This document shows positions 1,786 to 22,455 of a stretch of 64,000 bases of DNA, piece by piece. Every line of letters begins with the position of its first letter. The stretch's first letter is position 1. Both the position numbers and the translations under genes were made by a program. Below the pieces are notes generated by a model, which did not search any database, had not been told where the DNA came from, and worked only from the letters and a program-made list of their open reading frames with translations. The stretch comes from Candidatus Saccharimonadota bacterium (GTDB lineage Bacteria; Patescibacteriota; Saccharimonadia; Saccharimonadales; Saccharimonadaceae): the NCBI GenBank assembly GCA_017514045.1, contig JAFWLS010000020.1, positions 1 to 64,000 of the forward strand. The letters run 5' to 3'.

Positions 1786-4272
1786 TCAGGAAAGCTTATT
1801 TATCGCTTTTAAGACAGATGCTTTATCGGAACTGATGAGTTTTAAAGTCGAATCGATGTTGCTTTTGGCAACTTTGAGGGCGCGGGCGAGGATTGGATCC
1901 GTAGATAGAGGGGTGAAAAAGTCAAAATACTTCTTGGCATCTTCTTCGCGGTCAATGGTGACAGCAAAGTAACGCGGATAGTCTTCGATAGACTTCTCGC
2001 CGTTGATTTTGTAGATATAATCCCAGTTTTCAAACATCCAATCTAGTGCGCGGTCACGAGTGTAGCGCCAGCGACGAAGGCGAAGAAGAAAACCTAGATG
2101 ATCCTGAGGTTTGAGGAGCGGCGAATCTTTGAGCATAGAGAAGGCAAAGTCGATATTCTTTTTTAGACGGGGTTTGGTAAGGGCGGAGCGTAGTTCGGCC
2201 TTGAGTTCTGGATCTGAGGTGGTTTTGTATGCTTCGAGGACAAATGGATAAAATTCTTTTTCGTCGCGCCACATTTTAGCGGAGAGAATGAATGGCCGGG
2301 TGTCGGCCGACATGGCGTTTAAATCTGGTGTATAGATAGCGCAGAGCGAATCTATAAAATCTGAGTCTTTAGAGTAGAGGGCGGCGCCAAGGAAGGTCTG
2401 CCGAAGTTCGACATCGTTTAAAGACTCCCCTTCTTTAGGGGTTAACCCAAGGTTTTTAAGAGGTGTTTTGACGGTGTCATACAGGTAAGCCTTATATTTA
2501 GTCTCTTCGATGGTGTCGTAGTCAATGAAGAGAGTAAGTTTGCCAATGATCGTGTCGATGATTGACCAGATCGGAGCCGAAGTCTCGTTTTGGAATTTTT
2601 TGATGAGCGGGATAAGTGAGCTAGAGGCAACAATGGGTGTTTCGGCAAGGAGCATGCGATCGATAAGGATGCGAAGACGTTGCTCGGAAGAAAGCGCGTC
2701 GAAAGTTTTGAGTGCGTCGTCGAACTCTGGCCCAGAGAGGTTTATTAGGTAGTGACCAGACATATCGTCTTTGATTTCGGGGATGGGGTAGACGGAATTA
2801 TCTGAAGTTCCGTCTAAGAGAAAGCGTTGTTGTGCTTCGTCGGTAATTACAGGATAGCCCGGCTGAGTAATCCAGGCTGTCATGAGATCGCGGACGGAAA
2901 AGCCTTTGGTGTATGGTTCTAGGGAAACCCAGAGGTCAGATGCATCAGTATTTTTATAGGCAAATTTTTCAAAATAGGATTTGATTCCCTTGTAAAAGTT
3001 TTCTTCGCCCATTTCACGAATCAACATAAGCATAAGACGAGCTCCTTTGGCATAGACGATGCACGGGTCGAAGAGAGTAGCAATCTCGGCGGGATCGTTA
3101 ACGTCTTCTCTGACGGCTTGAACTCCTTCGATGGCATCGCGATAAAGAGCGGCGAGACAATCTTGAGTAAAGAAATCGAACCAGACACGGAACTCAGGGA
3201 AGATTTTGTCGGTGGCATAATACTCCATAATAGTAGCAAAGGATTCGTTGAGCCAGAGATCATTCCACCATTCCATGGTCACAAGATTTCCGAACCACTG
3301 ATGAGATAGTTCGTGGGTGATTGTAAGTGCGGCGGCCTTTTTGGTGGCGATAGACGAAGTTTTGTCGCAGAGAAGTTGCGACTCACGGTAAGTGACGAGG
3401 CCCCAGTTCTCCATAGCGCCAGCCTCAAAGTCAGGGATGGCGACCTGATCGAGCTTCTCCAGAGGATATGGTGTGCCGAATAGTTCGTCGTAATAATCTA
3501 AAGATTTGATAGCGATGTCGTTGGGAAGCTTTAAGAGATTTTGCTCTTGATTTAACGGGGCAAAAGTGCGGACGGTAACGCCAGATTTGGTTTTCCCTTC
3601 TACGAAATTGAACTTGCCAATGGCAAAAGCGAGGAGATAAGTGGACATTTTGGGCGTTGTTTGGAAATGCCAATTTGTGGCTTGTGCCAATGTTGCCCCT
3701 GTCGGGCGCAAGCCGCTTCGGCCAGTCGTCACGGTCGAGGCGCTTGTCGGAACCCGATCGTAACCTCCGTCACGCCGCCAGGAAGTGGCGCTTGGCTCCG
3801 TTGCTAGGGGTGTATTTGACAGGACGATATCGTCGGCATCAGGGATGGTGATGGATAGGTCGAAGGTGGCCTTGGCGGCTGGCTCATCGATGCATGGGAA
3901 ACATTCGCGAGCGTAATGGGATTCGAATTGAGTGGAGACTATACACTCTTCTTTACCTTCAAATTCGTAGGTCGAAAGGTAGGCACCCTGCATATCTTCC
4001 TTGATTGGTCCGTGGAAGGAGACTTTTATTTTTATTTCACTCTTTGGTGTGGCGGGCGCTGTTAGGATGCCATTCTCATAAGTAAAAGTGACTGGCTGAT
4101 TGTCTATTTCTAGTGAGTTGACGGTTAAACCTACAGCGTGGAGCTTGATATAGTCTGCGGTCTTAGTCTTGCCAGAGATGGTTACTAGACCATGTAGTGT
4201 TTTGGCATGTTTGTCGATATATAAGTCGAGAATATACGATTTGGGTGTAAAGAAATCTAAAAGTCGTTCCAT
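1786..4272 (-). CDS. pepN: M1-family zinc aminopeptidase
   Basis: An 828-residue M1 metallopeptidase that removes N-terminal residues from peptides; probably cytoplasmic, as no signal peptide is seen. The substrate-binding GAMEN motif is at 285-289, the zinc ligands HELSH at 320-324 and NE at 342-343. The C-terminal half is helical, as in the wider PepN/ERAP group; the symbol is by family only. The start codon coincides with the predicted +1, so the mRNA is leaderless. It ends in TGA, rare here. Residues of about 161-199 come from a GC-rich in-frame insert (3676-3792) not expected in the family. For an organism with little biosynthesis, peptide scavenging is a plausible role. Confidence 0.95.
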   Translation of the reverse strand: MERLLDFFTPKSYILDLYIDKHAKTLHGLVTISGKTKTADYIKLHAVGLTVNSLEIDNQPVTFTYENGILTAPATPKSEIKIKVSFHGPIKEDMQGAYLSTYEFEGKEECIVSTQFESHYARECFPCIDEPAAKATFDLSITIPDADDIVLSNTPLATEPSATSWRRDGGYDRVPTSASTVTTGRSGLRPTGATLAQATNWHFQTTPKMSTYLLAFAIGKFNFVEGKTKSGVTVRTFAPLNQEQNLLKLPNDIAIKSLDYYDELFGTPYPLEKLDQVAIPDFEAGAMENWGLVTYRESQLLCDKTSSIATKKAAALTITHELSHQWFGNLVTMEWWNDLWLNESFATIMEYYATDKIFPEFRVWFDFFTQDCLAALYRDAIEGVQAVREDVNDPAEIATLFDPCIVYAKGARLMLMLIREMGEENFYKGIKSYFEKFAYKNTDASDLWVSLEPYTKGFSVRDLMTAWITQPGYPVITDEAQQRFLLDGTSDNSVYPIPEIKDDMSGHYLINLSGPEFDDALKTFDALSSEQRLRILIDRMLLAETPIVASSSLIPLIKKFQNETSAPIWSIIDTIIGKLTLFIDYDTIEETKYKAYLYDTVKTPLKNLGLTPKEGESLNDVELRQTFLGAALYSKDSDFIDSLCAIYTPDLNAMSADTRPFILSAKMWRDEKEFYPFVLEAYKTTSDPELKAELRSALTKPRLKKNIDFAFSMLKDSPLLKPQDHLGFLLRLRRWRYTRDRALDWMFENWDYIYKINGEKSIEDYPRYFAVTIDREEDAKKYFDFFTPLSTDPILARALKVAKSNIDSTLKLISSDKASVLKAINKLS
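3676..3792. other. GC-rich in-frame insert inside the aminopeptidase gene
   Basis: A 117-base stretch that is about two thirds G+C, clearly richer than the flanking gene. It adds about 39 residues (161-199, containing SWRRDGGYDR) between two conserved M1 segments that normally join directly. It keeps the frame and has imperfect inverted repeats inside it (GCAAGCCGCTTCG against CGAGGCGCTTG). This resembles in principle the palindromic elements known inside Rickettsia genes. Identity as a mobile repeat is inference, because no second copy was noticed in the window. Confidence 0.6.
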
Positions 4273-15714: not shown

Positions 15715-18700
15715 TTAGAACTCCTCTCCGAGGTCAACTGTGCCATCGTCTTCTGGTGGAGTGTCGTCTTCGATGACACTGTCGTCGGACATGGACTCAT
15801 CGCCCTCTGTTATTTGAATACCCTCTTCATCAAGAGCTTCTTCGCCTTCTTCTGAGTCGAGGTCGGTGATAGAAGGTTCGGTTTCCTCTTTGTGTTGAGC
15901 GTAAATTTGTTGATCGTCTTTTTCTTTTTCGATTTCACGAGATGTTTCTTCGATAACGTCAGAGGCATCGCTCATTTCGCCATGATCAAGAAGATCGACC
16001 TTAAGGCCAAGACCTTGGAGTTCCTTGACGAGAACATTGAAGCCTTCTGGAAGTTTTGGTCCTTCGATTGGCTCATGTTTGATGATGGCTTCATAAGCCT
16101 TAGCACGTCCATAAACATCATCTGATTTGATGGTGAGCATTTCCTGAAGGGTAGTAGCAGCGCCATAAGCTTCGAGTGCCCAGACCTCCATCTCTCCGAA
16201 GCGCTGACCACCGTTTTGGGCTTTACCGCCAAGTGGCTGCTGGGTAACCATGGTGTATGGACCAGTAGAGCGGGCGTGAATCTTATCTTCGACCATGTGG
16301 TGAAGTTTGATCATGTGCATGACGCCGACGGATGTGCGTTCGTTGAATGGTTCACCGGTGAGACCGTCGTAAAGTTGGACGCGGCCATCTTCACTGAATC
16401 CGGCTTTCTTGAGTTCTTTGGAAATCGTATCGCCAGGAACACCGTTGAAGGATGGAGTTGCGACTTTGTAACCAAGTGCAGCAGCGGCCATACCCAAATG
16501 AGTCTCGAAGAGCTGGCCGAGGTTCATACGTGAAGGAACGCCCATCGGAGAAAGAAGGATGTCGATTGGAGTACCATCTTCCATAAACGGCATATCTTCG
16601 ACAGGAAGAACACGGGAGACGACACCTTTGTTACCGTGACGACCAGCGAGCTTATCACCTACGTCGATCTTGCGCATTTCGGCAACATAAATCTTGATTT
16701 GCATGAGTACACCAGCTTTGAGGTCATGGCCTTGTTCGCGAGTGTAAATGCGAACGCCAATAACTTTGCCGGTGCCGCCATTCATACGGACGGATGTATC
16801 GCGGACGTCTTTAGCTTTTTCGCCGAAGATAGCGCGAAGTAGGCGTTCCTCAGAGGAAAGCTCTTGCTCTCCTTTAGGGGTAATCTTACCGACGAGAATA
16901 TCACCAGTAGATACTTCAGAGCCTACAGTGACGATACCGTCTTCGCCGAGATGGCGGAGTGAATGTTCGCTGACGTTTGGAATATCGCGAGTAATTTGTT
17001 CGGGACCGAGCTTAGTTTCGCGGACTTCGACATCGTAATCTTTAATATTGATAGATGTAAGCTCATCATCTTCAACTAGGCGGGAAGAAATGACAATAGC
17101 GTCATCCATGTTATAACCACGCCATGGCATGAAGGCTACGAGCAAGTCTTTACCGAGAGCGAGTTCGCCATTGTCGATGGAGGCGCCTTCCATAAGGATG
17201 TCGCCTTTCTTGACTTTTTGACCACGGACAACTTTGACACGCATGTTATAGCAGCGATCGTCGTTGTTCTTTTCGAAGTGGGTAAGTTTGTATTCTTTTT
17301 CGGATTTGTCGGCATATTTGACAATAACGGAGACGCCGTCGGCTTTTTTGACTTCCCCGTCGCCTTCAGCGAAGACTACTTGAGAAAGGTTTTTGGCGAC
17401 GTCTGCTTCGATGCCGGTACCAACAACTGGGGCGTTGGTGCGAAGTAGAGGGACGGCTTGTTTCTGCATGGCGCAAGCCATGAGGGAGCGGTCGACACGG
17501 TTTTTCTCTACGAACGGAATAAGGCTGGCAGAGACACCGAGAATTTCTTTGTGAGCAGCATCAACGTGAGTGACACGGGATGACTCAACTTGAGCTGGTG
17601 TACCATGTACACGAGCGGAGACATAAGTGTCTACGAACTTGCCGTTTTTATCGATTTTGACGGATGCGTCAGCGATAATCATGCTGTCTTCGGCGCTAGC
17701 ATCGACATACACGACTTTGTTAGTGACTTTTCCGTCTTTTACGACGCGGTATGGTGCTTCGATGAAGCCGTATTCGTTGATACGGGCATAAGTTGCGAGG
17801 TTAAGCACGAGACCGACGTTTCCACCTTCTGGGGTTTCAACGGTACAGATGCGGCCGTAGTGAGTTGGGTGGGCGTCACGGACATCAAAACCGGCACGTT
17901 CACGGGTGAGACCGCCAGGACCCATAGAGCTCAGACGGCGCTTGTGTGAGAGCTCGGCGAATGGGTTGGTTTCATCCATGAGCTGAGAAAGTTGAGAGGA
18001 GGCGAAGAATTCCTTAACGGCTGCGACAACTGGGCGAGAGTTGAGGAGCTGAGACGGGGTGACCTCTTCTGGGTTAGCCATAGACATGCGGTCGAGAATA
18101 TTTCTCTGCAGGCGAAGCATGCCGAGACGGAACTGGCGTTGAACGAGCTCTCCAACGAGCTTAATACGGCGATTAGCAAGAGAGTCAATATCGTCAGCTG
18201 GTTCTTGAGTAACGTTTAGACGAATAATCTCAGAGATAATAGCGATAAGATCTTGCATCTGAAGTGTGCGATGCTTGGAATCGTTTGGCGTATCAAAGCC
18301 AAGGCGTTGGTTGATTTTGAAACGACCAACGCGGGAATAATCATAGCGTTTGTAGTCGAAGAATGTGCGTTCGATCATATCCTTAGCGTTCTCGACAGTG
18401 GCGAGGTCGCCTGGACGGAGACGGCGATATACTTCAATCAAAGCTTCTGATTGGCCACGAGTAGTGTCCTTCTCGAGCGTTGCATCGATGTAGGACATGC
18501 CGTCCTCACCGAGATGATCGAATTTAGCTTTGATGTCGCTGTTCTTGGATATACCAAGGGCGCGAAGGAAGGTGGTTACTGGGATTTTACGGCGGCGATC
18601 GATTTTGACATAGACGGCGCCAGTAGTGCTAGTCTCGAATTCGAGCCAAGCGCCACGGCCTGGAATAACCTTAGCGCCATAGTAATTTCTTTCACCAATA

Positions 18701-22409: not shown

Positions 22410-22417
22410 GCATAAAA

Positions 22418-22442
22418 AATAAGCCCCGGTGGGCTTATTTTT
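22418..22442 (-). terminator. rpsP terminator
   Basis: AATAAGCCC and GGGCTTATT arms with a T run. Confidence 0.85.
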
Positions 22443-22455
22443 TATGTTTCGAGTT

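Follow-up and report, generated by a model that had tools for sequence, protein, structure and literature searches.

The gene for an M1 aminopeptidase at positions 1786-4272 of the DNA analyzed here (minus strand; 828 amino acids with three Pfam M1/ERAP1 domains) raises the question of what a short G+C-rich block inside its coding sequence is and how it came to be there. The window, meaning the whole analyzed stretch of 64 kb, is part of a genome of 845 kb in 24 contigs, with named relatives among the Candidatus Saccharibacteria of the water-buffalo rumen and the sheep jejunum. A first-pass annotation, made from the sequence alone, had described positions 3676-3792 as a 117-base, G+C-rich in-frame insert. 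The G+C content of this block is indeed 65.8% compared to 45.3% across the window, the 117-mers reaching at least 65.8% (0.04% of those in the window) all lie inside 3675-3815, the sole such place in the 64 kb, and the reading frame of the aminopeptidase is uninterrupted through the entire block. Only the exact ends were slightly off, as the register of the repeat family described below places the element, of ~121 bp, at about 3680-3800 (minus strand; residues ~158-198). Its core, GGTTACGATCGGG ... CCGTGACGACTGG, comprises the 44 bases at 3722-3765 (minus strand) and is homologous to that family. By the family register, outer arms of decayed pairing lie at 3774-3800 on the 5′ (coding) side and at 3680-3707 on the 3′ (coding) side, both on the minus strand. 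In an AlphaFold2 model of the M1 protein (mean pLDDT 80.5) the residues of the element are mostly of low confidence, with the ten-residue blocks from 161 to 200 averaging 61, 47, 35, and 63, and the insert forms a low-confidence loop flanked by strands 161-166 and 195-203. The protein probably tolerates this extra peptide as a flexible loop.

The family to which the block belongs is visible only in relatives and not from searching the window's own genome. There, a search with the whole block yielded no second full copy, a 21-base match at 18643-18663 being a short fragment, and a search with the other copy of this genome did not recover the M1 block. When 99 relatives were searched at the DNA level, the central part of the block matched copies at unrelated loci (E-values of 2.9e-7 to 5.5e-7 per genome), with query bases 39-94 showing 79-81% identity to family copies, and the matching copies have the common core GGAGGTTACGACCGAG ... 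CCCGTRACGACGG. A strict core pattern, GGAGGTTACGRCCGAGN{8,26}CCGTNACGACGG, was present in 42 of the 118 genomes of the genus with up to 12 copies per genome, and the same pattern reversed, which served as control, gave 0 matches. With a slightly shorter pattern, 23 of the 294 genomes from the order gave matches, and these fall into 2 of 143 genera. Since diverged copies, such as the one in the window, escape the strict pattern, these counts are lower bounds. The scan of the order turned up a single strict copy beyond the genus, at L105 in genome G252, which belongs to another genus of the family. The element is almost wholly confined to one genus of gut Candidatus Saccharibacteria in these scans. 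The window genome contains one strict copy, on contig 15 upstream of lepA, and this copy and those in the congeneric genomes bear out the proposal that the block is a small repeat element. The block is best explained as a diverged copy of a hairpin element, ~116-122 bp long, that is dispersed and non-autonomous. A virus as carrier was rejected, as viral contigs contained 0 exact matches to the pattern.

Alignment with relatives had been suggested as a way to see whether the insert is absent from some, and an M1 alignment of 30 loci, the window's own included, shows both states. The insert is shared by the nearest relative, G002 (83% identity), and G099 has a family copy at the same M1 loop; G291 (78%), whose M1 loop is compact, and G031 (71%) are without it, and in several others this place is taken by different residues. 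The M1 core of the sister differs in only 2 of 43 bases from a copy at another locus of G291, the M1 site of which is empty. At the same loop, G022 (L006) has a different palindromic insert with arms TTTGTTTTGAGG ... CCTCAAAACAAA. The internal imperfect inverted repeats ascribed to the block were recovered as one 10-nt pair, and the block folds with z = -1.74, 13 of 200 shuffles folding at least as well. Without gaps, pairing of the outer arms of the window copy was not above chance (11 of 27 positions at the best register, with a swapped-arm median of 12), and the arms of the sister's M1 copy pair at 13 of 27 positions at their best register. Because its arms pair no better than chance, the family membership of the window copy rests on the core and not on the stem, and this copy is best seen as a decaying element at a loop used by several hairpin families. 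A separate, perfect inverted repeat of 16 bp with a 4-base loop at 22411-22446 of the window may be a terminator.

For a description of the family as a whole, 141 copies were collected and 140 used, one at a locus edge being dropped. In 95 of the 140 copies the whole element lies within an open frame of 150 codons or more, with 44 of these copies in one orientation and 51 in the opposite one, and in 45 it does not. The hosts, many of them housekeeping genes, we take from their translations and, apart from M1, not from a family search, to be der, lepA, ileS (two sites), valS, mnmA, uvrD, gyrA, pheT, truB, and others. On average, 2.5 of the six frames are open across the whole element in coding copies, 1.3 in non-coding copies, and 2.0 in dinucleotide shuffles; for the core alone the values are 3.2 in coding copies versus 3.8 in shuffles. 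An element specially free of stops was rejected, since open frames are not clearly enriched over shuffles. From the earlier statement that the element tolerates or prefers coding DNA, tolerance is therefore to be kept in view of the in-frame majority, and preference is not supported in view of the copies outside frames and the lack of clear open-frame enrichment.

Several in-frame hairpin families whose core loops differ from that of the window family occupy the same protein loops as it does, in lepA (L306, L308, L309, L310, L314, L319, L325, and L326), der (L353, L348), and uvrD (L368, L370, L376, L384). Open frames of ileS measure ~950 to 1190 codons in most genomes of the genus (L273-L302, L189, L162, L075), and inserts occur even within the conserved EFD-IDG-EHF stretch; the insert in this stretch belongs to another family and does not reveal which of its arms is host sequence. 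At L179 (1182-1301), a copy seemingly has another hairpin inserted beside its core.

Each copy consists of a G+C-rich core within an outer stem, which has a sharp boundary ~35 bases out. With the first G of GGTTACG as reference for counting, a base at position p to the left of the core has its partner at position 6-p on the far side, to the right. A position-wise profile, taken from the 71 copies (of 140) that have the most frequent register, revealed pairing of 0.58-0.97 at -9 to -35, followed by 0.44 at -36 and 0.32 at -37; with swapped right arms as control, pairing over -9 to -35 was 0.25-0.84, the high values being conserved inner positions. At their best registers, all 140 copies had a median of 20 pairs over 27 positions versus 12 in the swapped control. 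The G+C content is 0.70 in the core, 0.41 in the outer arms, and 0.44 in the flanks. Among 101 copies from 19 genomes, core identity was 0.835 within and 0.776 between genomes, with 0 of 1000 label shuffles giving as large a difference, and outer-arm identity was 0.354 within and 0.341 between genomes. Within a copy, pairing of the outer 17 positions averages 0.711 (140 copies). The outer stem is, in other words, mostly private to its copy in sequence, host-like in base composition, and self-complementary. Identical or near-identical arms at unrelated loci were found for L068 (twice), L082/L161, L154/L155, and L071/L192. Since arms are common to unrelated loci in this one subfamily, which includes the clade of the window genome, the whole hairpin has probably moved there. 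The two copies at L068 (1469-1587 and 2141-2259), with identical arms and ~670 bases apart in one open frame, look like a recent duplication of the whole hairpin. Direct repeats of 4-8 bases at the element ends were not clearly above control; at k=4 their frequency was 0.20 versus 0.14 in the control for the outer ends, and 0.14 versus 0.18 for the inner ones.

The origin of these private stems can be followed where occupied and empty versions of one site exist. For uvrD, 14 occupied and 17 empty loci were compared, with L378 left out as unparsable and L038 and L141 replaced by L369 and L379 from the same genomes. The motif EMRxRL[W/Y/A]x[L/I] precedes the site in all 17 empty and all 14 occupied loci, and the loop from EM to the next conserved motif has 23-37 residues when empty and 52-79 when occupied. 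In nine of the occupied loci, which by translation span at least three different core families, the coding-left arm starts at or beside the W-x-L-L codons, which are conserved, and recurs in inverted form as the coding-right arm, over 25 nt without mismatch in L384, 17 without mismatch in L377, and 21 with one mismatch in L186. The arms on host codons track synonymous host differences. In the other 5 of 14 the arm lies off the conserved host codons. In lepA, where 33 loci were listed and arm placement was judged by eye, the left arm of L303, L304, L306, L307, L308, and others lies on GPxP codons that are also found in empty relatives, e.g., L329, and in L131 and L104 it is the right arm that coincides with, or extends into, the TRAL codons of the host. 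It follows from the arms on host codons in uvrD and lepA that host DNA often makes up one of the arms and that either side may serve as the source. The outer stem is mostly not a fixed terminal repeat: in uvrD, where this is shown, and in lepA, as judged from reading the loci, host sequence that was already there often forms one arm and an inverted copy of it the other. In the der linker, the core of L066 is opposite in orientation to the cores of L037, L063, L099, L112, L126, and L175.

Orthologous copies were also compared with each other, which yielded 88 pairs, 74 of them close enough to count. In these 74 pairs, 484 positions had changed on both sides versus 307 expected under independence, and 321 of them are Watson-Crick in both copies. 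In the 26 pairs with at most nine changes per side, 75 positions were double-changed versus 28.5 expected, with 51 being Watson-Crick on both sides; these double changes are not independent events, since the pairs have members and ancestry in common. The arms thus change in concert between orthologues, and the concerted double changes in both arms that serve as a mark of template switching are found here.

Taken together, we consider it probable that the window block is a diverged member of a hairpin family dispersed over many loci, with stems partly copied from the host and formed or repaired through template switching. The inverted copy of an arm would arise via template switching of the DNA polymerase at the hairpin (quasi-palindrome correction), the same process would keep the stem near perfect, and it would also account for opposite core orientations at one site. 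Template switching at inverted repeats is described as producing inverted copies, perfected stems, and inverted spacers (PMC8794818; PMC8604942). The inverted host copies, the concerted arms, and the opposite core orientations in der all fit template switching. The sharp limit near -35 and the within-genome similarity of cores do not follow from it, and an inserting or homogenizing activity must exist as well; the core would be moved or homogenized between loci by some such activity. Several observations speak against this main reading, namely the sharp stem limit, which open-ended growth of a palindrome does not predict, the uvrD arms off host codons, the chance-level arm pairing of the window copy, and the arms that travel with the element in one subfamily. 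A bolder formulation, which we put forward only tentatively, is that of a new class of mobile hairpins without fixed ends, in which the core, at every site, generates an outer stem of fixed length as an inverted copy of the flanking host sequence, and in which several core families do so and remodel loops of essential proteins genus-wide. If this is true, the inverted repeat of such a hairpin is partly host coding DNA.

The stem limit, being sharp and common to the copies, would be expected if an enzyme inserted the core and wrote a fixed-length inverted copy of the flank in one event, e.g., by snap-back synthesis, with template switching acting at most in later repair. Host sequence as one uvrD arm and the absence of direct target duplications clearly above control agree with such an event. 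However, the concerted changes of orthologues after insertion need a continuing process, and there is no candidate enzyme, so that this alternative appears rather unlikely. Still less probable is a functional RNA or mRNA structure, the stem of which would be kept by selection through compensatory mutation and not by copying. Double compensatory changes and the strong folding of the uvrD inserts are what it would lead one to expect, but copies occur in either orientation and in coding as well as non-coding DNA, leaving no single transcribed strand conserved, and the uvrD arms on host codons follow synonymous host differences. In addition, Rfam gave only a chance hit for 3500-4000 of the window and, for eight copy-bearing loci, nothing above chance except an L10 leader at another place in L035. 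Short hairpins with conserved loop motifs would also suit REP-like repeats mobilized by a RAYT transposase (Y1, PF01797); yet a Y1 transposase scan of 108 genomes, which found no mobilizing enzyme for the element, detected Y1_Tnp in only five (four above cut-off), the one strong hit being in G041, a genome without strict copy, and the copy-rich G124, G134, G044, and G121 not being among the five, so that this mover was rejected as very unlikely. An ordinary divergent aminopeptidase loop without mobile history is equally improbable and was ruled out: the M1 loop is variable across the genus, but the homologous core stands at unrelated loci and the insert is absent from close relatives.

In-frame selfish palindromes occur in Wolbachia as well as in Rickettsia. 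Those described from Rickettsia, the Rickettsia palindromic elements (RPEs), are hairpins of ~105-146 bp in several families, found in-frame in unrelated conserved proteins and also in intergenic positions (PMC2229807, PMC10969869), and one source describes them as losing repeat identity over time (PMC6649704). The likeness to RPEs drawn in the first-pass annotation, compared here by RPE descriptions only, stands in form: the family is a dispersed hairpin with a paired stem in the 100-150 bp range (140 copies of 116-122 bp), fused in-frame to unrelated protein genes in most cases (open frames of at least 150 aa). It differs in belonging to another phylum, with copies found in Candidatus Saccharibacteria in two of the genera searched, and in that one stem arm is often host sequence accompanied by an inverted copy, with stems that co-evolve. 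The elements are therefore best read as RPE-like, set beside RPEs by description and not classed as such. Hairpins made by template switching share inverted copies, multi-base compensatory changes, and inversion of the loop or spacer (PMC8794818, PMC8604942), but these are mutation events at single loci, whereas here a core is repeated over many. Coding palindromes of Nematomorpha mitochondria are likewise near-perfect inverted repeats in coding genes for which template switching was proposed; there, however, both arms encode conserved protein, and the available text mentions no dispersed common core (PMC6649704). REP/REPIN sequences are also short dispersed hairpins, but they are extragenic by name, and the copy-rich genomes here are without RAYT. 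As to the terminal inverted repeats that copies of a MITE have in common, the arms here are private in most copies and common to unrelated loci in a few, and unlike in MITEs direct target-site duplication is not clearly above control. The literature on palindromic or inverted repeats in Saccharibacteria/Patescibacteria, with most subscription papers outside its scope, yielded no description of such elements. In-frame palindromic elements as such are an already known kind, represented by RPEs.

These reduced genomes tolerate repeat DNA within uvrD, lepA, der, ileS, and other core proteins. For the question of how in-frame palindromes move and persist, one genus here offers before-and-after sites. 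Since its many genomes allow occupied and empty states of a given site in an essential gene to be compared, insertion and stem-making can be traced base by base.
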